Part shown: positions 35,300 through 62,103 of the stretch, one piece after another
Numbering within the stretch: position 1 is the stretch's first letter
Layout: each line of letters opens with the position of its first letter
DNA from: Tenericutes bacterium HGW-Tenericutes-2
GTDB lineage: Bacteria; Bacillota_I; Bacilli_A; Acholeplasmatales; Acholeplasmataceae
DNA length: 64,000 bases
NCBI GenBank assembly: GCA_002839095.1
Contig: PGXL01000002.1
Location: 124,001 to 188,000, forward strand
Reading direction: 5' to 3'
The notes under the pieces: generated by a model
The model's input: only the letters and a program-made list of their open reading frames with translations
Database searches by the model: none
What the model was told of the DNA's origin: nothing
Translations under genes and position numbers: made by a program

Positions 35300-35316
35300 T
35301 ATGCTGTAAATGAATA

Positions 35317-35470
35317 CTTCGGGGCAACGTGAAATTCGTGACCGGCGGTATAGTCCGCGAGCCAATAGGCAGACCTTGTGTAATTCAAGGACCGACAGTA
35401 AAGTCTGGATGGAAGAAGGATGAGTCTTTTTGACGTTCTTTTGTCGCCGAAGTAATTTGGCGATTTTTTT
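35317..35470 (+). promoter_or_regulatory. FMN riboswitch (RFN element) with terminator
   Basis: The conserved RFN blocks are present in order: CTTCGGGGCA, GTGAAATTCGTGACCGGCGG, TATAGTCCGCGAGCC, ACCGACAGTAAAGTCTGGAT and GAAGAAGGATGA. A terminator TCGCC (35444-35448) with GGCGA (35459-35463) and seven T follows. Riboflavin mononucleotide binding should favour termination and lower ribU expression. The aptamer runs to about 35424. Confidence 0.96.
35444..35470 (+). terminator. FMN riboswitch terminator
   Basis: TCGCC and GGCGA form a short stem with a 10-base loop, followed by TTTTTTT. Confidence 0.75.
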
Positions 35471-38169: not shown

Positions 38170-40008
38170 ATGAAAAAAACATTTATCGACACTTATCGAA
38201 GCTTGACGTATAATTTAAGAACTCTATTCTTTTTTGAAGTCATTTACCGAGTCATTGGTTTACTCGTTATTTTTCCGTTAGGTCAGCTATTATTTCATCT
38301 CTCTATACGCTTATCTGGTTATGCTTATATAACAAATAGTCTTCTATTCACATACCTTGTTAAACCTTCAACCATTATCATTTTTTTAATCATGGGTATA
38401 TTTTTAGCGATTTATATTGTAATTGAACTCGTATTTTTATCATTAATCTTTGATTTTGGTTATCATGAAAAAAATATCTCATTTAAAAATCTATTGATCT
38501 ATGGCTCAAAGAAATTACTTGAAACCGTTAAAATATATCGTTTAAGAATTATTGGACCAGCGTTTTTATTTATTATATTGGTTGAACTATTCCATATTGT
38601 AGGGATTGCATCAACATTCAATATGCCAGATGAACTCATTGTTGAAATCAACAAATCGATTTATATGCAATTAGGATTTTATAGTTTAATTATTTTTTTA
38701 GGCTTTTTATTCATAGAAACTATTTTTACAATCAATTTATATACAATTGAAAAAATACCGACAAAAAGGGCTATCGAAGAAAGTCAAACCATGCTCAAGA
38801 AAAAAAGATTAGAGATGGTTTTAGAGTTTATCGGTTTAAATATTATTTTGAACGGTATTCTCTATTTAATCTATGCCCTAATCATTATTTTAATTGGTTT
38901 CGCTGTATCGATTATTAAGGGTGAAATCTACACGTTATCAGTGATTCTAACCCTTCTTTATTCACTATATTTAATTATTGGTTTTTTAGCAACCATTACA
39001 TTGATTCCAATCAATTACGCGATGATCTCCTCATGGTATTATGAAGCAAGAGAAAAAATGGGCTTCTTACCAACAGCAATTCCTAAAAAGAAAATATCTC
39101 CTAAATTGATTAACCTAAAGCGCGTTAGAAGAACGACGTTTGCTGCTATTTTCATTATTTCATTAATCAATATATCAAGCATCATTACACTACTTCAAAC
39201 GCCAAAGGTTCAAATCGAATTATTTAACTACGCTGAAATTGTTGCACATCGAGGATCTTCATTTGACGCTCCTGAAAATACTTTAGCTGCGGTTGAATTA
39301 GCGATAGAGCAGGGTGTCGATGCAGTTGAAATTGATGTCAGAGAAACAAGCGACTTAATTCCTATTTTATTTCATGACAGAACTACAGGTAGAACGACGA
39401 ATGATACCCTAAATCGAAGAGTTGCGAACATGACTCTAGCTGAAATGAAAAGCCTAGATGCGGGATCTTGGTTTTCTCCTGATTTTGCAGATGAAAAGGT
39501 TCCAACACTAGAGGAAACCATTATTAGAGTGGATAAACGAGTGGTTATGTTTATTGAGATGAAGGTCTATAGTCAAACGATAGAAGAAAGTGTATTATCA
39601 TTAATCGAACAATATGATATAGTGAATCAAGTTGTTTTACTTTCGTTTTCAAGAGATCAAATTAGAAGAATAAAGCAAATCAACCCAGATGTAAAAACAC
39701 TACTTTTAGTTTCAACCTTTTATGGAGATATTAGCCTACTTGCTGCAGCAGAGGATATTGATTACTTTGGCTTCTCAGAATTTTTCTTTATGAGAAATGA
39801 GGCCTTTGTTAAGCTGATCCATGAAAACAATAAAAAGGTTTACGTATGGACAGTGAATGATGATGCAAAAATAGAAGAGGTTATTTCAAGAGATGCTGAT
39901 GGTGTAATCACCGATAGACCAGTTCGTGCAAGAGAAATTGCATATTCTAGAAATACAACAGATATATTAGTAGAAATCTTAAGGAGATTCTTTAGAGTGG
40001 ATAATTAA
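38170..40008 (+). CDS. Glycerophosphodiester phosphodiesterase with N-terminal membrane domain
   Basis: 612 residues. Residues 15-335 contain about six to seven membrane helices (the GPDPase membrane domain). Residues 355-590 are the GDPD TIM barrel with VAHRGSSFDAPENT (catalytic histidine near 359), VEIDVRETSD and FHDRTTGRTT, and the final VNDDAKIEEVISRDADGVITDRP. It hydrolyses glycerophosphodiesters from lipid breakdown to glycerol 3-phosphate and alcohols, probably at the membrane. Single gene, ending at a terminator shared with the anion permease gene. Confidence 0.93.
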   Translation: MKKTFIDTYRSLTYNLRTLFFFEVIYRVIGLLVIFPLGQLLFHLSIRLSGYAYITNSLLFTYLVKPSTIIIFLIMGIFLAIYIVIELVFLSLIFDFGYHEKNISFKNLLIYGSKKLLETVKIYRLRIIGPAFLFIILVELFHIVGIASTFNMPDELIVEINKSIYMQLGFYSLIIFLGFLFIETIFTINLYTIEKIPTKRAIEESQTMLKKKRLEMVLEFIGLNIILNGILYLIYALIIILIGFAVSIIKGEIYTLSVILTLLYSLYLIIGFLATITLIPINYAMISSWYYEAREKMGFLPTAIPKKKISPKLINLKRVRRTTFAAIFIISLINISSIITLLQTPKVQIELFNYAEIVAHRGSSFDAPENTLAAVELAIEQGVDAVEIDVRETSDLIPILFHDRTTGRTTNDTLNRRVANMTLAEMKSLDAGSWFSPDFADEKVPTLEETIIRVDKRVVMFIEMKVYSQTIEESVLSLIEQYDIVNQVVLLSFSRDQIRRIKQINPDVKTLLLVSTFYGDISLLAAAEDIDYFGFSEFFFMRNEAFVKLIHENNKKVYVWTVNDDAKIEEVISRDADGVITDRPVRAREIAYSRNTTDILVEILRRFFRVDN

Positions 40009-41275: not shown

Positions 41276-41289
41276 TTGAAACGTTTCGA
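41276..41289. promoter_or_regulatory. LacI-family operator O1
   Basis: TTGAAACGTTTCGA, core GAAACGTTTC, differs at one base from the perfect palindrome O2. It lies at about +1 of P1. Confidence 0.8.
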
Positions 41290-41341: not shown

Positions 41342-41370
41342 TTGACACAAAATCGAGTCCTTGCTATAAT
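41342..41370 (+). promoter_or_regulatory. Promoter P2 of the glycan locus (near consensus)
   Basis: TTGACA at 41342-41347 and TATAAT at 41365-41370 with a 17-base spacer and a TGC extension before the -10. This is the strongest promoter in the window by consensus. Confidence 0.85.
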
Positions 41371-41429: not shown

Positions 41430-41443
41430 TCGAAACGTTTCGA
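41430..41443. promoter_or_regulatory. LacI-family operator O2
   Basis: TCGAAACGTTTCGA is a perfect 14-base palindrome located about 55 bases into the P2 leader, where bound repressor could act as a block to elongation or pair with O1 in a loop. Confidence 0.85.
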
Positions 41444-41497: not shown

Positions 41498-44400
41498 ATG
41501 AAGAACGCAGTAAAACTTTTTTCGATGCTTTTAGTCTTAGGATTGTTATTTGTGATCGTTGGCTGCAAACCGGCTGTTGAAACACCAGAACCAACACCGA
41601 CACCAACACCAACAGTTCCTGTTGTCACAGATTTCAATGTATTAGGTGGATGGATGGATGGAGGAGATGGTGTTTATACACTAACAACCAACACGACATC
41701 AAAATTAGAATTCTCATATGCAAAGGATGAATTTCCATACGCATACATGAGCAGTGCAACTATTACAGAAGATCTTTCTGTTTATAAGAAGCTTGTCCTT
41801 ACAGTTGAAGGCTCAGGTACGATGCTACTTAAGCTTGAAACTAGTGATAGCACACCTGCCAAGGAAATTGGCATTAATGTCACAGGTATTCAAGGAACTT
41901 ATGAATGGAATCTGATGGCATCCTCAGCATTTCTTGCTAAGGTCAATAAAGTAGTGATCATCGCTGCTCCAGGAAAAGAAGAGTCAATTGGTACAATCAA
42001 TATTACTCAACTTAAGTTTGGTGTTGATGTTGCATCTGGATTTATCATCAATGATGGTTTCAACAACATCCCAACAAATGTGAATGAATATAATGGTACT
42101 GATGAAATCTTTAACTTTAATAGCAAATGGGAAAACTTTGCTGAAGAAACTTATGTCATCACTCAAGATGGTACAGAATATGATGTTTCATTCACAAAGG
42201 CTGCTGGATTTGAATGGTCAGCAATGCAATCTAGAGTTCAAGGTAACTTCACAGCATTTAACTTTGTTGTTGTAAAAGTTACAGGTACAGCTGGACAACC
42301 AATCATTGTTAAGGCTGCTAACGGTGTTGAAACTAGAATTATCCTTAATGGTGAAATGCAAGAAGTCGTTGTAGATTTATCTGAAATGGCTTTAGCTGAT
42401 AAGAATGCAATTACATCCATTCTAATCTTTGGTAATGCCGGTAGAACTGGAACTGGATCATTTACAATTCATGAAGCATTCATGGTTGATGATTATGAAT
42501 ATGTTGCTCCAGTTATTATTAAGAACGAATACAATGGCACTGATTTAACATTTGATATTCACAATTGGTATGATGGTGGAGACCAAGTTTATGGTATCAC
42601 TAGAATTGCTGATGAATATTTAGTTGAATACAGCAAGCCAGATGCAAACTTCCATTGGTCATATATGTTTGCTAACCTTGATGGTGACTTTAGTGGATTT
42701 GCTAAAATTGAATTTGAAATCACAGGCGTAGAAAATAAGACATTACTACTTAAGGTAGAAAGTCCAGCTGGAGTTAAAGAAGTTCCAGTTACATTTGATG
42801 GAACTAAGCAAGTCTTTGTCTTTGATTTACTCACAATGACTACTGCTCAACTTGAACAGCTGAATAAGATCGTATTATTTGCTGCTCCTGGTGGAATTGG
42901 GTCAGGTGAATTTACAATTCATTCTGTAACATTTAAGACTTCCGATATGGATGTAAATTCAGGTTGGTCATCAATTGATCCAGGTGTTTATACATTCACA
43001 TATGGTGAAACAACAGTAGTAAATTACACGAAGACTGCTGGACAAGAATGGTCAGCAATGCGTACTGATTTTGTTCCTGCAGAAGTTGAAGGATTAAATA
43101 CATTAACACTTGTATTAAAGGGTACTGCAGGTAAATCTGTTTTAGTTAAGCCAAATGATAATGGTGCACTAGAACAAACAGTTAGCTTTGTAGATGCTAT
43201 GCCTGTAACAATCACTGTTACTGCAGATGCTTTTGTTAGTATCATTATGTTTGGTGAGCCAAACACAGCTCCAGCTACAGGTGCATTTGAAATCGTATCT
43301 GCTACATTGAGTTATGTTCCTGTTGATTTCGATCCAACGCTTGTTTATATGTTTAATGCAGCTTGGGTTGCAAATTCAGCAACAATTTATGATATTGAAG
43401 TAATGCAAGATAAGACAATGGTTACCTATAATAAGCTTGCTGGTAATGATTGGGAATGGATGAGAGTCCAATTTGATGCAAAAGATACTGCTGGTTTAAA
43501 TACAATGACAATCGTCATTAAGGGTACTGCTGGTAAGCAAGTATTGATTAAGCCAAATGATAGTGGCGCATTAGAACAATTCATCACATTTACTGATGAA
43601 AATCCAGTCACATTTACAGTTCAAGCTGCAGCATTTACTAGCGTTTACCTATTTGGTGATCCAGGTGTTGCTCCTGCTACAGGTTCATTTGAAATTCTTT
43701 CTGCTTCTCTATATTACACAGCAGATGTCAATGACCTATGGGTTCAAAATGATCCAGACACTTACGCTGTTGTTTATGGTGAAACTGCTGTGGTCAATTA
43801 CACAAAGGCTGCAGGTCAAGAATGGGTATTCCTAAAGAATAATTTCGTTCCTGGTGAAGTTGAAGGATTAAACACGATTAAGATTACATTAGAAGGTACT
43901 GCTGGTAAGTCAGTCATGGTTAAGGTCAATAATTCTATTGAAGAAACAATAACATTTGCTGCAGACACACCAGTCACACTTACATTTATGGTTGAATCAA
44001 TTACCGGTTTAATTATATTTGCAGAACCAGGTACTGCACCTGCTACAGGTTCATTTGAAATTATTTCTACAGAATTCATGTATATGACACCTCCACCAGT
44101 AGATACAGACGTCGTAGTTGACTTCACATTAACAGGTTGGGTTGATAATGATGGTGGAATTTATACATTTACTCCAACTGATGGTAAAAATGTAGTATCA
44201 TATACAAAAACTTCAGAACAAGCTTGGGCATTTATAAAGAATGTATTCGATATGGATCTTGCTAACCATAACACAATTGATATGGTTGTTAAAGGAACAA
44301 TCGGTGCACAACTAATCATTAAACCAAATGATAAAGGTGCCTTTGAACAAACAGTTACATTTGATGGAACTGAACAATCTCTAAGATTTACATTAAATGA

Positions 44401-45286
44401 AGCTCCAATGATGGTATTAATATTCGTTGATCCAATCAATGGAAGCTTAACAGGTTCATTTGAAATCATTAGCGCTAAGGTTCTATATGTTGAACCAGGC
44501 GTAGAAGTTGCAACCGATTGGGTTGATAACGATGGTGGAATTTACACAATTACTAAAGATGGCATGGTTTATGACATTGATTATGTAAAGACTGCAGGTC
44601 AAGAATGGGCATTTATCAAGAATGAATTTGTTGGCGACATGTCAGGATTTAATACAATCACTATGGTTCTTCAAGGTGAAGCTGGAAAGCAACTCATTAT
44701 TAAGCCAAATGATAAAAACATCTTTGAACAAACTGTAACATTTACAGGTGCTGAACAAACTATCGTATTTACATTAACAGAAACACCAGTTAAAATTCTA
44801 ATCTTTGTTGATCCAATTCTTGGTAGCTTAACAGGTTCATTTGAAATTAGATCTACTAAGTTATCTTATGTTGAACCAGCTCCTCTCGATCAAGAAATCG
44901 ATGTAAACTTTACTCAAGGTTGGGTTGATAATGATGGTGGAATCTACACATTTACACCAACTGATGGTAAAAATGTCGTTTCATACACAAAGACTGCAGG
45001 ACAAGAATGGGCTTTCATGAAGTACACATTTGAAGATAATCTTGCAAATCATAACACAATTACAATGGTTGTTAAAGGAACAAACGGTGCACAATTAATT
45101 ATTAAGCCAAATGATAGTGGTGCATATGAACAAACAGTTACATTTGATGGAACTGAACAAACATTTACATTCACACTTACAACTGCTCCAATGAACGTAT
45201 TGATTTTCGTTGATCCAATTAATGGCAGTTTAACAGGTACATTTGAAATCGTATCTGCAATTGTTTCATACGAACCAGGTGCATAA
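41498..45286 (+). CDS. Very large surface lipoprotein of about nine tandem beta-rich modules
   Basis: 1262 residues. The signal peptide ends in a lipobox with VIVGC (cysteine near 25), followed by a PTPTP linker. Then come about nine related modules starting near residues 50, 208, 355, 489, 621, 747, 881, 1007 and 1142, each about 126-158 long. The shared pattern is a W-rich start (GWVDNDGGIYT), YTKxAGQEW(A/S), a GTAGKxxxIKPND segment, an EQTVTF strand and GSFEI near the end. The last modules are nearly identical in places. A carbohydrate-binding role is suggested by the beta-rich form and locus, but no known CBM family is recognised. Ribosome site AGGAGG; first gene of the operon. Confidence 0.85.
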   Translation: MKNAVKLFSMLLVLGLLFVIVGCKPAVETPEPTPTPTPTVPVVTDFNVLGGWMDGGDGVYTLTTNTTSKLEFSYAKDEFPYAYMSSATITEDLSVYKKLVLTVEGSGTMLLKLETSDSTPAKEIGINVTGIQGTYEWNLMASSAFLAKVNKVVIIAAPGKEESIGTINITQLKFGVDVASGFIINDGFNNIPTNVNEYNGTDEIFNFNSKWENFAEETYVITQDGTEYDVSFTKAAGFEWSAMQSRVQGNFTAFNFVVVKVTGTAGQPIIVKAANGVETRIILNGEMQEVVVDLSEMALADKNAITSILIFGNAGRTGTGSFTIHEAFMVDDYEYVAPVIIKNEYNGTDLTFDIHNWYDGGDQVYGITRIADEYLVEYSKPDANFHWSYMFANLDGDFSGFAKIEFEITGVENKTLLLKVESPAGVKEVPVTFDGTKQVFVFDLLTMTTAQLEQLNKIVLFAAPGGIGSGEFTIHSVTFKTSDMDVNSGWSSIDPGVYTFTYGETTVVNYTKTAGQEWSAMRTDFVPAEVEGLNTLTLVLKGTAGKSVLVKPNDNGALEQTVSFVDAMPVTITVTADAFVSIIMFGEPNTAPATGAFEIVSATLSYVPVDFDPTLVYMFNAAWVANSATIYDIEVMQDKTMVTYNKLAGNDWEWMRVQFDAKDTAGLNTMTIVIKGTAGKQVLIKPNDSGALEQFITFTDENPVTFTVQAAAFTSVYLFGDPGVAPATGSFEILSASLYYTADVNDLWVQNDPDTYAVVYGETAVVNYTKAAGQEWVFLKNNFVPGEVEGLNTIKITLEGTAGKSVMVKVNNSIEETITFAADTPVTLTFMVESITGLIIFAEPGTAPATGSFEIISTEFMYMTPPPVDTDVVVDFTLTGWVDNDGGIYTFTPTDGKNVVSYTKTSEQAWAFIKNVFDMDLANHNTIDMVVKGTIGAQLIIKPNDKGAFEQTVTFDGTEQSLRFTLNEAPMMVLIFVDPINGSLTGSFEIISAKVLYVEPGVEVATDWVDNDGGIYTITKDGMVYDIDYVKTAGQEWAFIKNEFVGDMSGFNTITMVLQGEAGKQLIIKPNDKNIFEQTVTFTGAEQTIVFTLTETPVKILIFVDPILGSLTGSFEIRSTKLSYVEPAPLDQEIDVNFTQGWVDNDGGIYTFTPTDGKNVVSYTKTAGQEWAFMKYTFEDNLANHNTITMVVKGTNGAQLIIKPNDSGAYEQTVTFDGTEQTFTFTLTTAPMNVLIFVDPINGSLTGTFEIVSAIVSYEPGA

Positions 45287-45401: not shown

Positions 45402-46865
45402 ATGAAAAAAATATTAATGTTGGTATCCATCATTTTATTTGCATTGGTTTTGGTCGCTTGTAATAATAATCCTACAGAAGATCCAACTGATGATCCAACA
45501 ACTCCAGTAGAAGGACAGGTGACAATCACCTATGCTTCTTGGGATTTAGGGTCACCAGATTCACAAGAACCTAATATGCAACGTTTAATGATCCAAGCCT
45601 TTCAGGAAAGATATCCAAATATTAAGGTTAACATTATTGAAAGACCAAAAATTCCTGGAACCAATGACGATTTAGGATGGAATGAGTTCTTAGCTGCTAG
45701 AGCATCTACTCAAACACTTCCTGATGTATTTCAGGCAGATAACATTCCTTTTTATGTCATCAATGACTGGGCATACAATTTAACAACGGTTGCGAATGCA
45801 GATCCTGAATATATAAACGTCAGTGCAGATATTCGTGGAGTTGCAACCTATGATTCCAAGGTGATGGCGATTCCAAATGCTGTTCACTATGCAGGTTATA
45901 TAGTCAATGAAACACTATATGATCGTCAAGGTCAAGATTTTCCGACCATTGATTCAACAATGACTGAATTTTTAAGTCTAACAAAGGCTGCAGCAAACCA
46001 TGCATCCAATAACAATACGGGTGTTGTGGGCTTAGAGGGTATCGAACATATCATTCACTGGTATCCTGCACAGCTCAATACCAATTATCGTTGGTTTACA
46101 TTATCAGATTCTGGATTCAATTTGAATTCAACAGAATTTACATCAACGATGCAAATGTATAGAACACTAAGAACAGATCAAACCTATGTTTTAGAGGCTT
46201 TATATGATGCTGCTGGTGCTGAAAACTCTACAATTGAAATTGGTAACATTTTCCCTGAGGGTGATCCATTCAATAATGGTAATATTTTAGCGAAATGGTT
46301 TTACTCATGGGATTTTGGTTGGATGCAATCGAATATTAACAGTGGTCAATATACATGGGATCTAGAATTTATTGGAACACCTATCGTAAATGGCAACAAG
46401 CGTGTACCAATCGTCGCTGACTTTTATACTGTAGCTTCAAACACAAAAAACCCTGAAGCTGCTTATTTACTAGCAAAATGGATGGGCTTTGGTAAAGAAG
46501 GCTATTTGAAGCGCGTTGAACTATCAAAAACTGTTCCAGGTATATCCCAAGTTAATTTCGCACCAATTCAAAATGACGAAGATTTACTCGATGCTTATTT
46601 TGAGCTATATCCAAATTTCACTGGGTTAAGAACAATTATTGAAACAGGTACATTTATTGTTGAACCACCTAAATATTTACCAGGTTATATTGCAGCACGC
46701 TATTCAGGAACATATGATGCTGAAAATAAGATGTCTGATATTATAACCAAGTTAATGGCAGGAGAAGTAGCCTTAGCTGATATACGTGTACAATTGAACA
46801 CTAGAGCGAATGCACTTTATACAGAAGCCAATAATGAATTTGAAACTGCTTTAGGAAATAAATAA
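45402..46865 (+). CDS. ABC sugar-binding lipoprotein (solute-binding family 1)
   Basis: 487 residues from ATG 45402 (GAGGA upstream). The signal peptide MKKILMLVSIILFALVLVAC has its lipobox cysteine at residue 20, so the binding protein is lipid-anchored. Residues 30-480 show the MalE-type layout: ITYASWDLGSPDSQEPNMQR near the start, DVFQADNIPFY near 110, and NPEAAYLLAKWMGFGKEGYLKR near 350. It captures oligosaccharides for an ABC importer. The permeases that serve it are probably the pair at 49895-51734 or 56009-57819. Confidence 0.93.
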   Translation: MKKILMLVSIILFALVLVACNNNPTEDPTDDPTTPVEGQVTITYASWDLGSPDSQEPNMQRLMIQAFQERYPNIKVNIIERPKIPGTNDDLGWNEFLAARASTQTLPDVFQADNIPFYVINDWAYNLTTVANADPEYINVSADIRGVATYDSKVMAIPNAVHYAGYIVNETLYDRQGQDFPTIDSTMTEFLSLTKAAANHASNNNTGVVGLEGIEHIIHWYPAQLNTNYRWFTLSDSGFNLNSTEFTSTMQMYRTLRTDQTYVLEALYDAAGAENSTIEIGNIFPEGDPFNNGNILAKWFYSWDFGWMQSNINSGQYTWDLEFIGTPIVNGNKRVPIVADFYTVASNTKNPEAAYLLAKWMGFGKEGYLKRVELSKTVPGISQVNFAPIQNDEDLLDAYFELYPNFTGLRTIIETGTFIVEPPKYLPGYIAARYSGTYDAENKMSDIITKLMAGEVALADIRVQLNTRANALYTEANNEFETALGNK

Positions 46866-46912: not shown

Positions 46913-46932
46913 ATTCTTGAATGGAGAAACAG

Positions 46933-49902
46933 ATGAAAATAACACCGAAAATTAAAAAAATTGTGACCTTATCATTGATTTTGCTTGTTTCCTCATTTGC
47001 CATTTTAGGACTTGCTGGAGTGTTTACACCAAAGGAAAATCCAACACCAACATTTGCTAACCTAGAATCAGTTTACCTAGAAAATCATTACTCTAAATAT
47101 TTAAGTCAAATCAATACTAGCGAACCAAGCACTGACGTATCTATATCGATACCGGCAGTGGATTTTGTATTGCCTGATAACGAGGAACTCTCAGAAGACC
47201 AAATGAACTATGAATGGATTGAAGATTCCAGTATTTTTATCCATGTTGATATTGCGGATGCAGGACTTTATTATCTTCATATCAACTACATGTCATTAGC
47301 AAAGACACATATTCCTATCGGACTAGCTGTCAAGCTCAATGGTGCAGAGGATTCTCCTTACTATGAGGCATCACAAATTACACTTCCTACTTTATGGAGA
47401 GAATCATCAACAGATTTAGGTACAGATCGCTATGGCAACGATGTAAGTATCGCTCAAGAAACTGTAGATATTTATCAAGATTTATTAATCAAGGATACAA
47501 GAAGATTATATCAAGATGGCTTAGGCTTTTATTTAGAGGCTGGAGAAAATATCATTGAAATTGAAAAGATTTCAGGAAGCTTAAAGCTTAGAGAAATACG
47601 TGTAGAAACCAAAAAGGAATACATAAGCTATATCGAATATATCCAAAATTACGACAATACAACTGCTGATGAAATAATTAGAATCGAAGCGGAAGAAAAT
47701 CTATATAAAAGCTCTTCAACAATTGCTAGAGGAACAAGTAGAGATCCTTTGGTCAAGCCTTTTTCAATGACAAAGATCAAACTCAATGTTTTAGGCACTG
47801 ATTCCTATGACAATGGTGGAGATGCTGTTTCTTGGGAAGTCGATATTGAACAAGCTGGATGGTATTATATTACATTACGTGCTCAAATGCTAAGACAAAA
47901 TGCTACTTCCTATCGAACACTTTATATCAACGGAGAAATCCCCTTTGAGGAAGCGAAGCATCTACCAATTTCCTATGATAGAAACTGGCAAAATGCAACC
48001 CTAAGAACGATGGATCAAGAAAAGATCAAGGTCTATTTAGAGCCAGGTGATGTCATCACCCTAGAGGTTGATAGCTCATTATTTTCAACGACCCTAGAAA
48101 AGCTAAGAATGATTACATCAGAGATGAGTGCGCTTGGACTTGATGTTACAAAACTAACAAGAAATAATACAGACCGTGGAATTGATTGGGTTATGCTTGA
48201 TTATTTCCCTAACTTAAATAACGATTTATCGAGATGGATTGTTGAACTTGATGAAGCAAAGGAAGTTATTAAATCACTTTATGGCTTCAATAGAACTGCA
48301 CAAATCGTTAGAGATATTGAAGCAGCTAAACAAAAAATAGTCACTATTCAAGGTGATATCAATGAGCTACCAAGAAGACTCACCCTATTATCAACTGGGT
48401 CATCAAGTGCTGTGCAATTGATATCCAATCAGTTTGATAACATCATTAAACAACCTTTAGTTTTAGACGCAATCTATATCCATACCAATTTAGATGTTCT
48501 ACCCAATCCGAATCCAAATCTATGGACAAGAGTTCGAGTTTCTATCTCTCGCTTTTTCCTATCGTTTGTTGATCAGTCCTATTCTGAAAAGGCGGATCCG
48601 GATGAGCTTGAGATATGGGTCAATCGTTCAAGACAGTATGTGGATTTGATGCAAAAAATAGCAGATGATCAATTTACAACTCAAACCGGCATTAAAGTCA
48701 AAATATCATTAATCAATGATGATTCGAAGCTACTTTTAGCAAATTCTGCAGACCAACAACCTGATGCTGCGTTAGGCATATCTGCATGGATTCCTAATGA
48801 ATATGGTATGCGTGGAATGCTCTATGATATGAGTCAAGCTAAAAACTTTAGCCAAACTATTCAAGTCTTTAATCCGGAGCAACTCATTCCAATGACTTTT
48901 GATAATAAGCTATATGGTTTACCTGAAACTGAAAACTTCTTTGTTTTATTCTATAGAAAAGATATACTTGATCAGCTAGACTTAAACGTGCCAAATACTT
49001 GGCAGGATGTTTTAGACATGCTTCCGGTATTGAGAAGATATGGCATGAGCTTTTATATACCGTTATCCTCATCATCAGCATTAAAATCGTTTGATTCAAC
49101 TGCACCTTTAATCTATCAGTTTGAAGGAAAGATTTATGCAGATGATGGATTTGGCTCAGCTATCGATTATGAAAATACAGTTCAAGCCCTATCCTTTATG
49201 ACTGATTTATACCGAGAATATAGTATGCCATTCCAAGTACCTAGCTTCTTCAATAGCTTTAGATACGGAGATATTCCTATTGGTATTGGTGATTTTGGAA
49301 TGTATTTGCAGTTAACCAATGCAGCGAGTGATATTAGTGGTCTATGGGATATTGCACTTGTTCCAGGTATTCCTCATCAAAAACTAAATGAGGATACTCA
49401 AATGATGGAAACCGTGATTAACCGTTCGATGGGTGGAGCACAGCAGGCTTCAATCATCTTTGAAAAATCAGAGAAGAAGGAAGAGGCATGGGAGTTCATC
49501 AGCTGGTGGATGTCAACAGAAACTCAAGTCTTATTTTCGAATACCTTATTAAATACATTAGGCACTAGATATATTTGGAATACAGCAAATCTCGAAGCCT
49601 TTGAACAATTAAGCATCAATAAAGCACATTTAGAGGTTATCTTAGAACAATGGACTCACCTAAAGGAAGTACCGAAAATTCCTGGTAGTTATATTGTAGA
49701 AAGAGAAATTAGTAATACATGGAATAGTGTCGTCTATAATGATGCCAATTTAAGAAGTACGGTCTCGGATGCGATGATTAAAATTGATCGTGAGCTTGCC
49801 AGAAAGATGGTTGAATTTGGCTATCTAGATAGCAAAGGAAACGTCTTAAAACCATTCAATCTACCAACGGTTGAAGATATCTTGAGGTGGTATGATGAGT
49901 AG
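46933..49902 (+). CDS. Large solute-binding protein fused to two N-terminal beta-sandwich-like domains
   Basis: 989 residues from ATG 46933 (GGAG at 46923-46926 gives suitable spacing; ATG 46921 has none). A hydrophobic N-terminal segment (about 10-30) has no lipobox, so it is a signal anchor or cleaved signal. Two beta-rich domains follow near residues 65-225 and 255-400; both contain the same strand pattern ([13 protein letters not shown] and [14 protein letters not shown]), suggesting duplication. A helical linker (430-490) leads to a type 1 solute-binding domain at about 540-960 ([37 protein letters not shown]). Probable dedicated receptor for a large or complex saccharide. The stop overlaps the next permease start. 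Confidence 0.88.
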
Positions 49903-50842
49903 AATGGGATCAGTAAAGCTTAAGGTTAAAAAGTTTATAGAACTAGAAAAAAAGCAGTTTAAGAATGATGATAAAGCCGCTTATCTTTTCACATTGCCTT
50001 ATATCATCTTATTTCTTGCGTTTATTGTTATCCCAATCGCATTAGCGATTATTCTATCCTTTACCACATTTGATATGGTATCATTTCCTACATTTACAGG
50101 ATTTAATAATTATATCTATTTATTAACCAGTGATGAAGAATTCATGAAATATATACTACCAAACACAATTAAATTCGCAGTTATCGTTGGTCCTGGTGGC
50201 TATATATTATCCTTTGTCATGGCTTGGGCATTAGCACAGCTACCTCATAAGCTAAGAACAGTACTAGCCATTATATTATATTCACCATCACTGACAGCAG
50301 GTGTTACGATGACTGTTGTATGGCGTGTATTCTTTGCAGGTGATGAATCTGGTTATCTAAACTATATGCTCCTAGAGCTTGGCATGATTGTAGAGCCTAT
50401 CGCCTTTTTACAATCTCCTCAATATTTATTTACTATTATGCTTGTTGTTGCATTATGGGGATCCATGGGTATCGGCTTTTTAGCAATGCTTGCAGGTATA
50501 TTAAATGTTGATCAAGAGCTTTATGAAGCTGCTTATATTGATGGACTCAATTCAAGATTCCAGGAGGTTATCTATATCACTATACCAGCCATGAAGCCCC
50601 AAATGCTATTTGGAGCCGTTATGGCAATCGTTGGTACATTTAGTGCTGGGGCATTAGGTGTTTCTTTATCCGGATCCAATCCAACACCAAATTATGCAGG
50701 ATCCTTAATTGTAAACCATATTGAAGATTACGGATTTATCCGCTATGACATGGGTTATGCTGCCGCATTATCTCTAGTTCTTTTACTGATTATATATTTC
50801 TTCAGTAGATTATCTTGGAGATTCTTCGGGGACAGAGATTAG
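49895..50842 (+). CDS. ABC sugar permease, MalF-like (pair 1)
   Basis: 315 residues from ATG 49895 (GAGGTGG upstream; ATG 49892 is alternative). Six membrane helices are visible. The coupling motif [25 protein letters not shown] near residues 212-236 is the EAA loop of MalF-type permeases. It overlaps the solute-binding gene by 8 bases. With the 50853 gene it should form a heterodimeric channel for the large binding protein. The ATPase is not encoded here. Confidence 0.95.
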
Positions 50843-50852
50843 GAGGAATATG

Positions 50853-51734
50853 ATGAGAAAAATAAGAAATTTTAGAGCCATCAAAATTAATCCTACTCGC
50901 TTTGGTTGGGGTCAAGTTCCATTCCTACTTATGGTACTACCGATTGCAGCATTTATGATGATGCCGTTAGTCTATATTTTTAATCATGCATTTAAGCCAT
51001 TTGACGAGTTAATCGAATATCCACCAAGATTCTTTGTTAGAAGACCTACCTTGGATAATTTATTTGAATTATTTGAAACTGCAACGACAACAGGTATTCC
51101 TGTTACCAGATATTTATTCAATAGTATTTTAATTACAGCTGCCGTTGTCTTTCTATCTATCTTTTTAGCAACCATCACTGGCTATGCGCTATCTAAATTG
51201 AAATTCCATATAAAAGGAGTTATTTCACAAATCAATACACTAGCGATGATGTTTGTTGGTACAGCTGTTATTATTCCTAGATACATCATTATCGAACAAT
51301 TGGGATTGATTGATAATTTCATGGTGCACATTATTCCTGTCATCGCAATCCCTGTTGGTTTATTCTTAGTCAAACAATTTATCGACCAAATTCCAAATGA
51401 ATTATTAGATGCAGCGAAAATTGATGGTGCATCGAGCATCATGATCTACTGGAAGATTATTCTTCCATTGATTAAGCCTGCAATCGCGACCATCGCGATT
51501 CTCTCCTTCCAAATGGTTTGGAATGATGCAGGTATTTCTGCAACCTATGTCAATACCGATAGCCTAAAGACCTTTGCCTATTATATGCAAACACTTGCCT
51601 CCTCATCGAATGTGGTCGCTGGTGCAGGGATGAGTGCTGTAGCATCACTGATTATGTTTTTACCGAACTTGATTATCTTCATATTCCTTCAAAGTAAGGT
51701 AATGTCAACGATGGTCAACTCGGGGATTAAGTAG
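50853..51734 (+). CDS. ABC sugar permease, MalG-like (pair 1)
   Basis: 293 residues from ATG 50853 (AGGAGG six bases upstream; ATG 50850 is alternative). Six membrane helices; the EAA motif reads NELLDAAKIDGASSIMIYWKIILPLIKP near residues 178-205. A large loop near 38-75 precedes the first permease core. It lies 10 bases after its partner. Its stop TAG abuts the next gene. Confidence 0.95.
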   Translation: MRKIRNFRAIKINPTRFGWGQVPFLLMVLPIAAFMMMPLVYIFNHAFKPFDELIEYPPRFFVRRPTLDNLFELFETATTTGIPVTRYLFNSILITAAVVFLSIFLATITGYALSKLKFHIKGVISQINTLAMMFVGTAVIIPRYIIIEQLGLIDNFMVHIIPVIAIPVGLFLVKQFIDQIPNELLDAAKIDGASSIMIYWKIILPLIKPAIATIAILSFQMVWNDAGISATYVNTDSLKTFAYYMQTLASSSNVVAGAGMSAVASLIMFLPNLIIFIFLQSKVMSTMVNSGIK

Positions 51735-51743
51735 GTGAAGCAT

Positions 51744-53768
51744 ATGAGAAAACTAAGCTTATGGATCATCATTTTAATGACTGCTATACTATCATTTAGC
51801 TTAAAAGAAGTTGAAGCATCCAATCTTTCTAATTATGGAATACCCTATCAAACCTATACACTAAATTCTTCAAAAAGATTGATACCAACCCAGGCAGCCT
51901 ATATTCCAGTTGGTAATTTTGGTCGTAATTTAGGATTATCATTTCCTGAGGATCTCTTTTATGAGAATAATTTGTTTTATATCGCGGATACCGGAAATAA
52001 ACGGATTGTCATATCCAATACATCAGGTGATTTGATTTCTATTATTGACCTACCAGAATTTGAACAACCGACCGGTGTCTTTGTAAAGGATGAATTTTTA
52101 TATGTTGCTGATAAGCTTTCTAAAGAAGTATATAAAATTGATTTATTAACTGAGGAAATCGTTCAAACAATCGTTAAGCCCACTTCACCAATTTATGGAC
52201 AAAAAAATGATTTTGTCCCTATTAAGGTTGCAGTGGATTCCAGTGACTCTATCTATATTATTGGCGAAGGCTCTACATCTGGTGTTATTCAGATGAATTA
52301 TGCAGGAGAGTTTGTTGGTTATTTAGGAATCAATACAGTAACGCTTTCCTTAAGAAGAATTTTATATAACTTCTTTGTACAGGATCCCAATTTAGCATCA
52401 AGCCTGCCAGCCTCCCCTACCAATATCGCCTTAGGTCAAAAGGGTGCGATATTATCAACAAATGTCAATGTCAATGAAACCTTTAAGAGATTAAATATCT
52501 CTGGAGTGAACACATTATTACCTACAACGGTATATCCAACACAGGCATTATCAGATATTTGGATGAGTAATGAATCCTATATTTACTTAACATCTGATAA
52601 TGGTGATGTTTATGAATATGATTCCAATGGGAATATGCTGTTCTACTTTAATACGAAGGATAATGCACTCACTCAAACATTAGGATTAACATCTAATCCA
52701 AAGGGGATTGTTTCTGATAACTCAGGTAATTTATATATTTTAGATCGAGGCTATAATTCAATTCATGTTTATCAAAGAACGGTGTTCGTGGATTTAGTTC
52801 ATAAGGCAGTCACCTTATATAATGATGGAAAATATGTGGAATCGAAGCCTATATGGGAAGAAATCATTCGACAAAATTCATCATTTGCGTTAGCGCATTC
52901 TGCATTAGGTGCAGCCTTAATGAAAGAAGGAGCCTATGATGAGGCTTTATCAGAATTTTATGATGCAAGAGACTATTTAGGATACTCCAATGCGTTTTGG
53001 GAAATCAGAAATGTGTCGATTCAACAAAATCTACCAACCTTCGCGCTTGTAATATTTGGATTATATTTAGTTTTAAAGATTGGCACAGCAATCTTTAGAA
53101 AGTCATTGATTTATCCTCAATATGTAGAGAAGAAGGAAGCCTTCTTAAATAAAAAACTGGTGAAAGAGGTCACCTATAGCCTAAACGTGATTAAAAGACC
53201 TAACGATATGTTTTATGGCATTAAACGGATGAATGAAGCGAGCTATCTATCAGGCTTTATTGTATTAGGACTATTTGTTATCGTTTATTTAATTGATGTT
53301 TACGCAACCGGATTTTTGTTTCGATCAACAAATCTGAATAGTGTAGTCGTTCAGTTAGTCACTGTTTTATCTATCTTTTCATTATATGTGTTAGTCAATT
53401 ATTTAATTTCGACATTAAATGATGGTGAAGGTAGATTTAAGGATGTTTTCATTTCAACATCCTATATTCTCGCACCATTTATTCTATTCACACTACCAAT
53501 GACATTCTTATCCAATTATCTAACCTATAATGAAACATTTATTTTTGATTTCTACCACCAAATCATTTTATGGTGGACATTGATTTTAATTTTCTTATCC
53601 ATCAAATGGGTTCATAATTATACATTCATGGAAACCATTAAAAATATTTTAATTATTCTTTTTGGAATGTTTATCTTAATTTTAATCGGTTTATTAATTT
53701 ATTCATTTATTGGCCAATTGATTGAGTTTATCCTATCAATAATCAAGGAGGTGATCTATCGTGTTTAA
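51744..53768 (+). CDS. NHL-repeat, TPR and Yip1-like membrane protein
   Basis: 674 residues from ATG 51744 (AGGTG upstream; a GTG at 51735 lies before this site). A signal peptide (1-27) is followed by NHL-type beta-propeller repeats at about 40-345 (GLSFPEDLFYENNLFYIADTGNKRI, DNSGNLYILDRGYNSIHV). TPR-like helices follow at about 350-420 (AHSALGAALMKEGAYDEAL). One membrane helix lies near 430, and about five helices at 500-674 resemble a Yip1 domain. Such a fusion has no assigned function. It lies between two permease pairs, so it may organise the binding proteins or the glycan at the surface; this is inference. Confidence 0.8.
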   Translation: MRKLSLWIIILMTAILSFSLKEVEASNLSNYGIPYQTYTLNSSKRLIPTQAAYIPVGNFGRNLGLSFPEDLFYENNLFYIADTGNKRIVISNTSGDLISIIDLPEFEQPTGVFVKDEFLYVADKLSKEVYKIDLLTEEIVQTIVKPTSPIYGQKNDFVPIKVAVDSSDSIYIIGEGSTSGVIQMNYAGEFVGYLGINTVTLSLRRILYNFFVQDPNLASSLPASPTNIALGQKGAILSTNVNVNETFKRLNISGVNTLLPTTVYPTQALSDIWMSNESYIYLTSDNGDVYEYDSNGNMLFYFNTKDNALTQTLGLTSNPKGIVSDNSGNLYILDRGYNSIHVYQRTVFVDLVHKAVTLYNDGKYVESKPIWEEIIRQNSSFALAHSALGAALMKEGAYDEALSEFYDARDYLGYSNAFWEIRNVSIQQNLPTFALVIFGLYLVLKIGTAIFRKSLIYPQYVEKKEAFLNKKLVKEVTYSLNVIKRPNDMFYGIKRMNEASYLSGFIVLGLFVIVYLIDVYATGFLFRSTNLNSVVVQLVTVLSIFSLYVLVNYLISTLNDGEGRFKDVFISTSYILAPFILFTLPMTFLSNYLTYNETFIFDFYHQIILWWTLILIFLSIKWVHNYTFMETIKNILIILFGMFILILIGLLIYSFIGQLIEFILSIIKEVIYRV

Positions 53769-55998
53769 GAATATTATTTTCAAGCGATTGATCATTTTAA
53801 TACTCATCTCATTTTCAATAACCTTTGGAGTATATGCCTTCCTTGAAGAGGAGACTGGTCAACTCGATTCCATTCCTAATTTTGATGAGATCATTCCTTT
53901 AGTGGATTCCAATAAGTATTCTCATCTAAAATCAGATGCCTTAGCTACCAACCAACAAGGATTCTTTGATGAGCCTATTGAAATTCTAACCGTTTATGGA
54001 ACTGTCTATTTAGATCCAGAATCACTCGCCTTTCAGGTTGTTAATAATAATGGATATATTTGGTCTTCAACAATTAATGAAAATGTCCCAGGACTCCCAA
54101 ATACGTTTAAAAGACGTGCGAGAAGTGCAATTATTCTAGAATCATTTAATACAGGTGTAACAAGCTTCGCATTAACTGAAGAAAATCTTTATGAAAGTAA
54201 TACTGAAATTGAGTTAACCTTAATTACCAATGGATTCCACGCATTAATAACCTTTGGAAGATCTGGTATTCAAATGGGATTATATGTAACCTTTGGACTT
54301 GATTCTATCCATGTCGAAATTCCCTATGAAGAAATCAATGAAAGTGGAGTATTTAAAATATCATCTATCAAGGTTTACCCATATTTTGGTGCGGTTTTAG
54401 AAAACCAAATACCAGGATACGTATTTTTACCTGATGGAATTGGTGCATTAGTAGATTATAAGCTAACAGATCCTTTAATTTCAACCAATTATCAAAAGGA
54501 AGTATATGATAGAAATATCGGATACAATCTTGTAAGTAATATGAATACCTTTTTAAGTGGTGGTACGAGAATTTACGCTCCTGTCTTTGGCTTTGTTCAT
54601 GGAATCAATCAAAATGCTGTATTCGCCAATATCACAAGTGGCTCAGAGTACGCGATGATTAACCTATATTTTCCAGCAAGAACCAGAGGATTTACGACTG
54701 TTTTCTCTGAATTTGTTTATCGAAAAACATATCGTCAGCCAATTGATAAGGTTGGAAATACGATATCCTTATTACAATCATTTTCCAATCAAATGGATAT
54801 AAAAATAGAATACACTCTTTTAGAAAATGAAGATGCAAACTATGTCGGTATGGCTAAGACCTATCGAGATTATCTCGATCTTGAATCCTATGAAAGTCAA
54901 TATGATTCGATTCCTTTAAGATTAGACGCGATTGGAATTGAAAAGAATAAGGGATTACTCTTTAACCAAACAACAGTCATGACCACATTTAGTGAGTTTA
55001 GAGATATAACTCTAGATTTAAACAGTCATGGCATCGATTATATTATTGGTAATTTTAGTGGATTTACAAAGCGTGGTGTGACATGGTCAGCACCACAGTA
55101 TGAAAATATATCGAGAAGATTAGGTAGTAAAAATGATCTCGAGTCGCTTCAAGAGGCACTCAGCAGTCTTTATTTCGTGACTGAATACTTAAAGGCAAGC
55201 AATCAATCATCAGGCTATAATCAATACTTTGATTTAGCGAAAAAGATTAATGATCAACTCTATACCTATCTATCAGGAACAGACACCAAATACTTACTTG
55301 AGTATCACGCAGTTCAAAGTATTATGAATAAGAGTATAGCGAAGCTATCAGATGAACCAATTGATGGATTTGCTATCGAATCGATGGGAAGCTTACTTTA
55401 CGATGATTTTAGTAATAAGAAATATCTTCCTGAAGCTATATTAATGTATCAAGAGCTATTATCTAATATCGAAAAGGATATCGCATTGTATGATGTCAAC
55501 TCATATTTATGGAAATCAATGGATTTATATTATGATTTCCCGATGTATTCCTCTCAATATATAACATTTGATGATACAGTACCATTTTTATCGATTGTTT
55601 TAAGTGGTTCTGTTCAGCTATTTGGCCCACACGCTAACTTTTATCCATACGCAAGAGATGAATTGCTTCGCTTAATTGATTTTGGAGTTTATCCATCCTT
55701 CGTCGTCACACAAAAGTCATCTAAGGAGCTTCAAGAAACAGGATTAGAGGCTATTTATTCATCAAAATATGATGATATTAAAAAATCTATATTAGCATAT
55801 TATGATTTTGTTGATGGTGCACTTTCATCAGTCATCGGTCAAAGAATTGTTGATCGTCAAGTCATTACCAATGGTGTTATTCAAATCACCTATGAAAATG
55901 ATATCGTCATATACGTGAACTATAGAGAAACTCCATTTACACAAGGAAGTTTAATTATAGGTGCTAAAAATTATGTAATTAAAGATTTAAATGCTTAG
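53761..55998 (+). CDS. DUF5696-like extracytoplasmic protein, possible glycosidase fold
   Basis: 745 residues from GTG 53761, which is preceded by AAGGAGGTGATC, a full match to the anti-Shine-Dalgarno region; it overlaps the upstream stop by 8 bases. A hydrophobic segment near residues 10-28 is a signal anchor. Residues 70-260 are beta-rich and include the typical GYVFLPDGIGALVDY near 218. Residues 270-640 look like a TIM-barrel-type alpha/beta region, and the end is beta-rich (NDIVIYVNYRETPFTQGSLIIGA). This order recalls glycoside hydrolases with beta-sandwich flanks, but no catalytic pair can be named. No enzyme activity is known to me. Confidence 0.75.
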   Translation: MFKNIIFKRLIILILISFSITFGVYAFLEEETGQLDSIPNFDEIIPLVDSNKYSHLKSDALATNQQGFFDEPIEILTVYGTVYLDPESLAFQVVNNNGYIWSSTINENVPGLPNTFKRRARSAIILESFNTGVTSFALTEENLYESNTEIELTLITNGFHALITFGRSGIQMGLYVTFGLDSIHVEIPYEEINESGVFKISSIKVYPYFGAVLENQIPGYVFLPDGIGALVDYKLTDPLISTNYQKEVYDRNIGYNLVSNMNTFLSGGTRIYAPVFGFVHGINQNAVFANITSGSEYAMINLYFPARTRGFTTVFSEFVYRKTYRQPIDKVGNTISLLQSFSNQMDIKIEYTLLENEDANYVGMAKTYRDYLDLESYESQYDSIPLRLDAIGIEKNKGLLFNQTTVMTTFSEFRDITLDLNSHGIDYIIGNFSGFTKRGVTWSAPQYENISRRLGSKNDLESLQEALSSLYFVTEYLKASNQSSGYNQYFDLAKKINDQLYTYLSGTDTKYLLEYHAVQSIMNKSIAKLSDEPIDGFAIESMGSLLYDDFSNKKYLPEAILMYQELLSNIEKDIALYDVNSYLWKSMDLYYDFPMYSSQYITFDDTVPFLSIVLSGSVQLFGPHANFYPYARDELLRLIDFGVYPSFVVTQKSSKELQETGLEAIYSSKYDDIKKSILAYYDFVDGALSSVIGQRIVDRQVITNGVIQITYENDIVIYVNYRETPFTQGSLIIGAKNYVIKDLNA

Positions 55999-56008
55999 GA
56001 GGATGAAG

Positions 56009-56896
56009 ATGACCAAGAGAAAGATGTCAAGAGCACTTCGTGAAAACTTAATCGGCTATTCATTCATCGGCATTTGGATTGTCGGCTTCTTTATCTTTAT
56101 GTTTTACCCTTTTATCTCTTCTTTAATTTATTCAATGAGTGAGGTTAGAATATTAGGAAGTGGTATTGATGTTCAATTCCATTGGTTCGAGAACTTTAGA
56201 AGAATCTTTCAGATTGAAGAAGGATTCCAGTTTATTGAAGCACTCATTTCATTTCTTAAGGAAATTATCTTCCAGGTTCCAATTATTATTGTATTTTCGG
56301 TCTTGATTGCTGTTTTACTCAATCAGCCACTTAAGGGTAGAGGAATGTTTAGATCCATATTTTTCCTACCAGTTATTATTTCAAGTGGACCAGTCATTAA
56401 TGAGCTAATTACTCAGGGTGCTGGTGGCGCTGCAATCTTTGAAAGCTATGGCTTTATTAGTATTATCGAAAATACACTTAACCCAGGACTTGCAGCACCA
56501 ATTATTAGTGTGTTCTCAGAAATCATTATTATCTTCTGGTTTTCTGGAGTTCAAATTCTAATCTTTTTAGCAGGGCTTCAAAAGGTAGATCGTCAAATTT
56601 ATGAAGCTGCTAGAGTCGATGGTGCAGGACCTTGGGAATCATTTTGGAAGATTACATTACCATCACTATCAACTTTAGTATTTATTAATGTTATCTATAC
56701 CATTGTTTTATTATCAACATTTAGTGAAAATGCAGTCATTATAAGCATTAAATCCAATATGTTTAACATCAATACTGGCTATGGTATGGCATCAGCAATG
56801 GCCTGGGTATATTTCATTATCGTGATGCTAATGATTGGACTTGTCGCTATAATCTTTATCCCCAAAAACGTTAAGGAAGGGGGAAAGAGAAGATGA
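56009..56896 (+). CDS. ABC sugar permease, MalF-like (pair 2)
   Basis: 295 residues from ATG 56009 (AGGAGG at 55997-56002). Six membrane helices; the EAA motif reads IYEAARVDGAGPWESFWKITLPSLS near residues 197-221. It starts 10 bases after the DUF5696-like gene and overlaps its MalG-like partner by 4 bases (ATGA). Its sequence is clearly different from pair 1, so it is a second transporter rather than a recent duplicate. Its substrate is unknown. Confidence 0.95.
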   Translation: MTKRKMSRALRENLIGYSFIGIWIVGFFIFMFYPFISSLIYSMSEVRILGSGIDVQFHWFENFRRIFQIEEGFQFIEALISFLKEIIFQVPIIIVFSVLIAVLLNQPLKGRGMFRSIFFLPVIISSGPVINELITQGAGGAAIFESYGFISIIENTLNPGLAAPIISVFSEIIIIFWFSGVQILIFLAGLQKVDRQIYEAARVDGAGPWESFWKITLPSLSTLVFINVIYTIVLLSTFSENAVIISIKSNMFNINTGYGMASAMAWVYFIIVMLMIGLVAIIFIPKNVKEGGKRR

Positions 56897-57819
56897 ACAA
56901 TAAAAAAACGATGAAATCAAGAATTAAAAGATTTATATTAGGCACGAACGGGACCAATTCAACATTGGCTAAAATTGTGATTTATATCCTTTTGATTGCT
57001 ATTGGATTTTTATACATTTATCCAATGCTATATATGCTTTCCAATTCCCTAAAGAGTCAATCAGATATTATCAATCCAATGGTCAATTGGGTACCAACTG
57101 CGATTTACTTTGGTAATTATGAAAGAGCATTTAGAGTCTTAAGATTTTTCCCAACCTTAAGTAAGAGCTTAGTCGTGACTCTTCTTCCAGCATTAATTCA
57201 AACTGCAGTTACAGCCTTAATAGGCTATGGATTTGCAAAGTTTAATTTTAAATTCAAGAAAATGTGGCTTGTCTTAGTCTTAATGACCTTTATTATTCCG
57301 GTTCAAGTTTACATGATTCCAAGATATGTGATGTTCTTTGAATTTGGATTACTTGAAAAGCCACTTGCTATTATCCTTCCTGCAATTTTTGGTCAAGGTG
57401 TCAATTCTGCAATATTCGTTTTAATTTTCTATCAATTCTTTAGAATGATACCCCAAAGCATTAATGAAGCAGCAGAAATAGACGGTGCTGGTCCCTATTA
57501 CATTTTCTTTAGAATTGCAGTTCCTCTAGCAGTACCTGCATTCATTACTTCATTCTTATTTGGTTTGGTTTGGTATTGGAATGAAACCTATATCGCTTCC
57601 CTATTTTTAGGCTCAGCGTATCCAAATCTACAATTAAGACTCGCAAATTTCGTTTCAGAATACACACAGATTTATTCATCTGATGAATTACTCAGAATTA
57701 ATGAGGGTGTTAGATTAGCAGCAACCCTATTAATCATCCTGCCAATGGTCATTGTTTACTTCGCTATACAAAGATGGTTTGTTGAGGGTGTTGAAAAAAC
57801 TGGTGTTACAGGAGAATAA
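56893..57819 (+). CDS. ABC sugar permease, MalG-like (pair 2)
   Basis: 308 residues. Six membrane helices; the EAA motif reads SINEAAEIDGAGPYYIFFRIAVPLAVP near residues 192-218. ATGA overlap with its partner. The last five codons are followed directly by the GH144-like lipoprotein gene, 5 bases later. The binding protein for this pair is probably one of the two coded upstream. Confidence 0.95.
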   Translation: MNNKKTMKSRIKRFILGTNGTNSTLAKIVIYILLIAIGFLYIYPMLYMLSNSLKSQSDIINPMVNWVPTAIYFGNYERAFRVLRFFPTLSKSLVVTLLPALIQTAVTALIGYGFAKFNFKFKKMWLVLVLMTFIIPVQVYMIPRYVMFFEFGLLEKPLAIILPAIFGQGVNSAIFVLIFYQFFRMIPQSINEAAEIDGAGPYYIFFRIAVPLAVPAFITSFLFGLVWYWNETYIASLFLGSAYPNLQLRLANFVSEYTQIYSSDELLRINEGVRLAATLLIILPMVIVYFAIQRWFVEGVEKTGVTGE

Positions 57820-59256: not shown

Positions 59257-59270
59257 TCGAAACGTTTCAA
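59257..59270. promoter_or_regulatory. LacI-family operator O3
   Basis: TCGAAACGTTTCAA, core GAAACGTTTC, one base from the perfect palindrome O2. It lies at about +5 to +18 of the predicted transcript, just before the ribosome site. Confidence 0.85.
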
Positions 59271-59282
59271 TGAGGTGAAATG

Positions 59283-62101: not shown

Positions 62102-62103
62102 TC

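Follow-up and report, generated by a model that had tools for sequence, protein, structure and literature searches.

What does a lipoprotein built of nine repeated modules do in a wall-less bacterium, and what would it bind? The question is raised by a 64,000-nucleotide (nt) stretch of Tenericutes bacterium HGW-Tenericutes-2 (Acholeplasmataceae; contig PGXL01000002.1, positions 124,001 to 188,000 of the forward strand), hereafter the window, in which the gene for such a protein lies at 41498–45286 on the plus strand. An initial annotation had read the aromatic pattern of the repeats as a sign of ligand binding, and overall our analysis supports that interpretation. The product is very likely a lipid-anchored surface protein that captures glycans through multiple domains resembling carbohydrate-binding modules (CBMs), and we put the probability that it is a surface multi-CBM capture protein with beta-1,2-glucan as its ligand at roughly 70%. 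The gene is the first of a complete beta-1,2-glucan utilization operon.

The open reading frame runs from an ATG at 41498 to a stop codon at 45284–45286 and encodes 1,262 amino acids (aa), exactly the coordinates and length first annotated. Read by eye, the N terminus is that of a bacterial lipoprotein, with a signal peptide and lipobox (41498–41566, MKNAVKLFSMLLVLGLLFVIVGC) in which VIVG precedes the lipidated position C23 (MKNAVKLFSMLLVLGLLFVIVG before the cysteine), followed by a Pro/Thr-rich linker (residues 24–44, 41567–41629). Using a profile of the protein's own repeats, we recovered nine modules of ~125 aa, spaced 126–159 aa from start to start: M1 (residues 45–175, 41630–42022), the most divergent, M2 (204–330, 42107–42487), M3 (351–480, 42548–42937), M4 (483–607, 42944–43318), M5 (616–741, 43343–43720), M6 (742–863, 43721–44086) and a duplicated C-terminal set comprising M7 (874–998, 44117–44491), M8 (1002–1125, 44501–44872) and M9 (1135–1259, 44900–45274). 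When each module was scored with a profile built from the remaining eight, scores ranged from 35.5 bits (M1) to 162.7 bits (M9), while the best of 200 shuffles per module reached 4.4–10.8 bits, and the modules are therefore homologous far beyond chance. The count of nine in the initial annotation was right. Pairwise identity is 14–28% between M1 and the other modules, 25–53% among M2–M6 and 58–77% among M7–M9. The motifs named at the outset are real but unevenly spread, and they apply in full only to M4–M9: EW(A/S) appears letter for letter in M2, M4, M8 and M9, with Tyr in place of Trp in M1; GTAGK is confined to M4–M6; KPND occurs in M4, M5, M7, M8 and M9; and the FEI ending of M4–M9 is replaced by INI in M1 and FTIH in M2 and M3.

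Searches of Pfam and NCBIfam with the full lipoprotein returned no family above its cutoff and no catalytic domain, so that the modules are non-catalytic parts of a carbohydrate-active operon (GH144, GH3 and SOGP). No Pfam family was matched consistently by 85 module sequences, and a module profile found nothing below E = 0.3 among PDB sequences. The modules therefore belong to no existing CBM sequence family in Pfam or PDB, a scope that takes in those CAZy families with a Pfam model or a PDB entry. Weak Pfam matches of the full protein (RepA_N, SUFU_C and DUF5024) and of single modules were rejected because they fell below cutoffs and were inconsistent from module to module. The earlier statement that no named CBM family is recognizable stands for the libraries searched, to which the module family is new.

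Structure prediction places the module in a known fold class. An AlphaFold2 model of M9, based on an alignment of the 85 module sequences, is a jelly-roll beta-sandwich of nine strands without any helix of at least four residues (predicted local distance difference test (pLDDT), 93.6; predicted template-modelling score (pTM), 0.88), in agreement with the beta-sandwich that had been anticipated. The top 50 Foldseek matches of this model in PDB are mostly CBMs (E-values of 2.6e-5 to ~3e-4, TM scores mostly 0.5–0.63), including CBM29, CBM4 (1gui), a BiXyn10A CBM, CBM86, CBM15, CBM11, CBM6, CBM61, CBM35 and CBM22. A fold search of BFVD with the module returned phage tail and CenC-like CBM proteins of the same superfamily.

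Could the modules instead serve structurally, as a stalk or spacer, or act as an adhesin for other surfaces that is co-expressed with the sugar operon and binds no sugar? Stalks and adhesins often contain long tandem arrays that vary in number and show C-terminal duplication, and the module sequence bears no known CBM signature. However, Lys74, Glu82, Lys36, Asn57 and Trp42 (M9 numbering, as used throughout) are strongly conserved, so that conservation extends beyond the hydrophobic core; the closest structural matches are CBMs and not Ig or FN3 domains; and CBM4_9 lipoproteins take the protein's place in other loci. On this evidence, we regard a stalk or adhesin as unlikely.

The case for beta-1,2-glucan as the ligand comes from the genes that follow. 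Two homologues of GH144 endo-beta-1,2-glucanases lie at 57824–59209 and 59280–60506, identified by PF10091 (E = 3e-58 and 3e-47) and by PDB matches to XCC2207 and endo-beta-1,2-glucanases (5gzh). The first is a lipoprotein, as its N terminus (MKNFKKYLLLLLIILSGFGLIAC, with a LIAC lipobox) indicates, and the second lacks a signal peptide and is predicted to be cytoplasmic. A GH3 beta-glucosidase gene starts at 63094 and continues beyond the window end at 64000; it is followed by the gene for SOGP (1,096 aa, G000:C31:189232-192519), identified by its SOGP_N, SOGP_2nd and SOGP_4th domains and a match to PDB 5h3z at E = 1.9e-245. Neither of these proteins, nor the GH13 enzyme of the operon, carries a signal. 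Two solute-binding proteins (SBPs) are also encoded: the lipoprotein SBP1 (SBP_bac_1; 45402–46865, with a likely start at ATG 45402), whose match is PDB 22hh (E = 3e-50), and a 993-aa protein (46921–49902) with a weak CBM_35 match in its N-terminal half and a C-terminal SBP domain. The best PDB match of that domain is Lin1841 of Listeria (5ysb; E = 4e-16), with other sugar SBPs ranking next; by the title of Abe 2018, as cited in PMC12102758, Lin1841 is a sophoro-oligosaccharide binder. Given the GH144, SOGP and GH3 genes, the likely ligand of the modules is therefore a glucan, specifically beta-1,2-glucan.

With a surface GH144 and SBPs encoded in the same operon, and with some jelly-roll domains known to bind proteins (MAM and adhesin domains appear in the Foldseek list), the modules might alternatively be a protein scaffold that docks these partners at the membrane without touching glucan. 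Against this, GH144 and SBP1 have lipid anchors of their own, the module hidden Markov model (HMM) found no matching docking module in neighbouring proteins (nothing significant in the SBPs, the DUF5696 protein or the Yip1 protein), and half of the otherwise similar operons have no such lipoprotein. We consider such a scaffold very improbable.

To place the lipoprotein in its phyletic context, we used 61 genomes (its own and others from its genus, family and order). SOGP and GH144 co-occur in the same 31 genomes. Lipoproteins with type-A modules, as we call those of the beta-1,2-glucan lipoproteins, are found in 16 of these 31 and in none of the 30 others (Fisher P = 2.2e-6, not corrected for kinship), a count from which we left out G014, where a single type-A module sits in the lipoprotein of a GH16 locus. 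The initial annotation held that absence of the repeats from close relatives would speak against it; they are present there, and the named close relatives are metagenome-assembled genomes (MAGs) of Acholeplasmataceae. A sample of the phylum yielded the module in 22 of 392 genomes, and a single-protein scan of genome contigs yielded only three close loci. In four of the locus-bearing genomes (G033, G022, G050 and G035, the last slightly under the cutoff), the operon encodes a CBM4_9 and Ig-like protein instead, and in a fifth (G021) only Ig-like domains were recognized in the corresponding protein. That a known CBM family fills the operon slot elsewhere supports a carbohydrate-binding role.

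Modules of a second, divergent subtype, which we call type B, form a clade with 100/100 support in the module tree. Both subtypes keep residues W13, Y34, W42, G65, K74, E82, F108 and G118 almost without change, and they differ at positions 43–46 and 76. Type A carries K36, N57, [F/W]44 and [R/K]46, and type B carries W43 and N44-N45. By strand parity, positions 42/44/46, 72/74, 82/84 and 106/108 would share one face, and the pattern of conservation is what would be expected of a common putative binding site with a type-specific readout. Type-B modules occur in paralogous operons that have the same transport cassette but encode GH16 and a GH161-type phosphorylase, or GH30 or GH5; in another locus they adjoin a weak match to GH81 that falls under the family cutoff, and their lipoproteins are often fused to CBM4_9. 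Judged from gene content, module subtype appears to track the substrate, type B going with beta-1,3-glucan enzymes, although the match is imperfect.

Several observations weigh against beta-1,2-glucan capture. MAM, gingipain adhesin and Cry domains appear in the same Foldseek list for M9, so that sugar binding is unproven by the fold alone, and the jelly-roll (galactose-binding-like) fold is also used to bind proteins and lipids. The beta-1,2 lipoprotein of G008 ends in two type-B modules, and the single type-A module in the GH16-locus lipoprotein of G014 is the converse case. One module belongs to a cassette that adjoins a pullulanase homologue (L083), and the type-A lipoprotein, being absent from half of the genomes that encode both GH144 and SOGP, is accessory. 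As an observation in its own right, the L083 locus (L083:9828-14285), in which a lipoprotein with one type-A-like module and the same transport cassette stand beside the pullulanase homologue, suggests that the cassette also serves alpha-glucans.

These exceptions bear on a further alternative, in which the modules bind a glycan other than the beta-1,2 backbone, either another beta-glucan or the phosphoglycerol, succinyl or acetyl substituents on osmoregulated periplasmic glucans. Modules of the same superfamily are also present in loci for beta-1,3-glucan and close to a pullulanase, and esterase-like or phosphodiesterase genes (DUF4886, AXE1 and GDPD) lie in or near some loci. However, type-A lipoproteins occur in no genome that lacks GH144 and SOGP, and they share the operator of the operon; we judge a different ligand improbable.

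The operator is a 12-base pair (bp) LacI-type palindrome, YGAAACGTTTCR, with three sites in the 2.3-Mb genome, all of them in this operon, where base composition predicts ~0.6; this distribution ties the lipoprotein to the operon. The first two sites (41277–41288, TGAAACGTTTCG, and 41431–41442, CGAAACGTTTCG), 154 bp apart, bracket the perfect sigma-70-type promoter of the lipoprotein at 41342–41370 on the plus strand (TTGACA-17-TATAAT, 12/12 matches, with TG before the -10 element), and the third (CGAAACGTTTCA) lies at 59258–59269. A pair of palindromes ~150 bp apart is conserved upstream of the lipoprotein in seven orthologues (G003, G005, G006, G007, G008, G013 and G016). A single palindrome precedes the lipoprotein in G026 and lies upstream of the genes preceding it in G043 and G048. 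The arrangement suggests that a LacI-type looping complex represses the lipoprotein promoter; a LacI-family regulator is encoded within the operon (62077–63063).

The history of the array proved longer than first supposed. Across relatives, the lipoproteins have 6–10 modules in total. In the module tree, M1–M3 form positional clades across genera and M4–M6 largely do likewise, while the C-terminal modules are lineage-specific. Modules 5–8 of G005 and modules 4, 9 and 10 of G013 arose by duplication inside their genes. The proposal that the array expanded by recent duplication in M7–M9 holds in that these form the closest set, with C-terminal duplication (M7 and M9 share about 77–80% aa identity, and 82% across 300 nt), but the duplication is not fresh, as each has its own orthologue in an 89%-identical relative with separate M7, M8 and M9 (M7–M7 86%, M7–M9 74%). 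Compared with a 68%-identical species, M7 and M9 look partly homogenized since the split. The 'recent identical stretches' of the initial annotation suggest a younger and less variable expansion than the one we find.

The beta-1,2 and beta-1,3 lipoprotein genes of G008 have an 865-nt tract in common, at 93% identity (L039:9489-10353 and L049:9608-10469). From the sequences, this looks like an exchange between paralogues that would have brought the two type-B modules into the beta-1,2 lipoprotein, with an assembly artefact less likely. A chimeric contig in particular would require a double crossover, given that the sequence beyond the tract is again that of the beta-1,2 operon, and we consider it unlikely. 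We tentatively propose, at somewhat less than even odds, that the module founds a new CBM family for beta-1,2-glucan, that divergence has fitted type A to beta-1,2 and type B to beta-1,3 linkages, and that cassettes swapped between paralogous lipoproteins retune glycan capture.

For the capture of beta-1,2-glucan itself, we infer the following course. The lipid anchor and Pro/Thr linker would present the nine CBM-like modules, each a jelly roll, on the outside of the wall-less cell, where they would bind beta-1,2-glucan multivalently and hence with high avidity, the glucan probably being cyclic or linear molecules released by other bacteria. Captured glucan would be concentrated beside, and handed over to, the lipoprotein GH144, which is predicted to cut it; the SBPs and ABC permeases would import the resulting sophoro-oligosaccharides, and the cytoplasmic GH144, SOGP and GH3 would degrade them. 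The LacI-type repressor would control the operon through the two operators flanking the lipoprotein promoter, presumably by looping.

Downstream of the lipoprotein, the gene order is SBP, the SBP with a possible CBM35, two permeases, NHL-Yip1, DUF5696, two permeases, GH144, GH144, GH13, LacI, GH3 and SOGP, with all of these genes that lie in the window on the plus strand. Family searches place the ABC permeases at 49892–50842, 50850–51734, 55991–56896 and 56893–57819. The membrane protein with NHL repeats, TPR and Yip1 (51735–53768) is conserved in the cassette copies examined. In the beta-glucan loci examined, the DUF5696 protein (53761–55998) and its homologues (L052–L059, L091 and L093–L095) are neighbours of NHL-Yip1 and permeases. 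The DUF5696 model (pLDDT 79) combines a membrane helix at the N terminus with a GH129/GH101/GH36-like fold, matching a GH129 in Foldseek at E = 7.9e-30, and the protein is predicted to be a membrane-anchored alpha-glycosidase-type protein within beta-glucan operons; a literature search on DUF5696 found no description. The cytoplasmic GH13 alpha-glucosidase-type enzyme (60491–62101) is related to phosphotrehalases, below the cutoff of that family, and may possibly act on the alpha-1,6 bond of alpha-1,6-cyclized beta-1,2-glucans; the G008, G013 and G052 loci have a GH35-type gene near this position instead. Just upstream of the lipoprotein lies a membrane GDPD gene (38170–40008), and some related operons (L111, L116, L117 and L119) include GDPD (L117:4855-6684) and DUF4886 lipoproteins, which may remove phosphoglycerol or acyl groups carried by osmoregulated glucans. 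Farther upstream, an FMN riboswitch (35311–35424) directly precedes the gene at 35493 for the substrate-binding component of an ECF transporter, likely a riboflavin transporter.

As a kind, the system is a variant of a known one. Like the beta-1,2-glucan (sgl/SOGP) clusters, for example that of Listeria innocua with SOGP and Lin1841, it combines GH144, SOGP, GH3 and an SBP that may be of the sophoro-oligosaccharide type (PMC12102758, PMC11842490); unlike them, its cassette adds NHL-Yip1, DUF5696 and two further permeases. Term look-ups in the same two papers met no multi-module capture lipoprotein. The CBM4_9 and Ig-like lipoproteins of sister beta-1,3- and beta-1,2-glucan operons (L048, L049, L090, L092, L116 and L118) have the same operon slot or role, and the beta-1,3 versions carry homologous type-B modules, but their N-terminal CBM4_9 or Ig-like domains are absent from the nine-module lipoprotein. 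CBM4 and CBM11 include beta-glucan-binding members, and with these and other jelly-roll families (CBM29, CBM15 and CBM86) the modules share a predicted beta-sandwich of the same fold class and conserved Trp and polar strand residues. Unlike those families, they lack a sequence match in Pfam, NCBIfam or PDB, stand nine to a non-catalytic lipoprotein and have beta-1,2-glucan as their predicted ligand.

In its working mode rather than its sequence, the protein resembles SusE and SusF of Bacteroidetes, which are likewise lipid-anchored, non-catalytic and multi-CBM-like, and whose expression is controlled together with that of a surface endo-glycanase and an importer. Unlike in those systems, the operon has neither SusC nor SusD, the importer is of the ABC type, there is no outer membrane, and the relatives are Acholeplasmataceae MAGs. 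Sas20 of Ruminococcus bromii, a non-catalytic surface protein for starch adherence with several sugar-binding domains and a function not apparent from its sequence (PMC9112005), is a second likeness from a Gram-positive lineage. It differs in that its two starch-binding domains have other folds (a beta-sandwich with helices and a bilobed groove), reside in amylosomes and form no lipoprotein repeat array. The lipoprotein may thus work like SusE/SusF or Sas20, an analogy that implies membership of neither family.

Beta-1,2-glucans are polysaccharides that bacteria use in osmoregulation and in interactions with their hosts. We know of no dedicated CBM for beta-1,2-glucan, and to our knowledge its surface capture by scavengers appears largely undescribed; literature searches found nothing on sophorotriose with a carbohydrate-binding module, and nothing relevant on Acholeplasma with beta-glucan, lipoprotein or glycoside hydrolase. 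The degrading enzymes have been known by sequence only since 2014 (PMC12102758). If the modules do bind, they would be the first dedicated beta-1,2-glucan-binding modules, usable as a probe for this glucan, and the pairing of types A and B in one genus would offer a natural experiment on how linkage specificity changes in a CBM-like module. Wall-less Acholeplasmataceae would then run a polysaccharide-capture system analogous to SusE/F.

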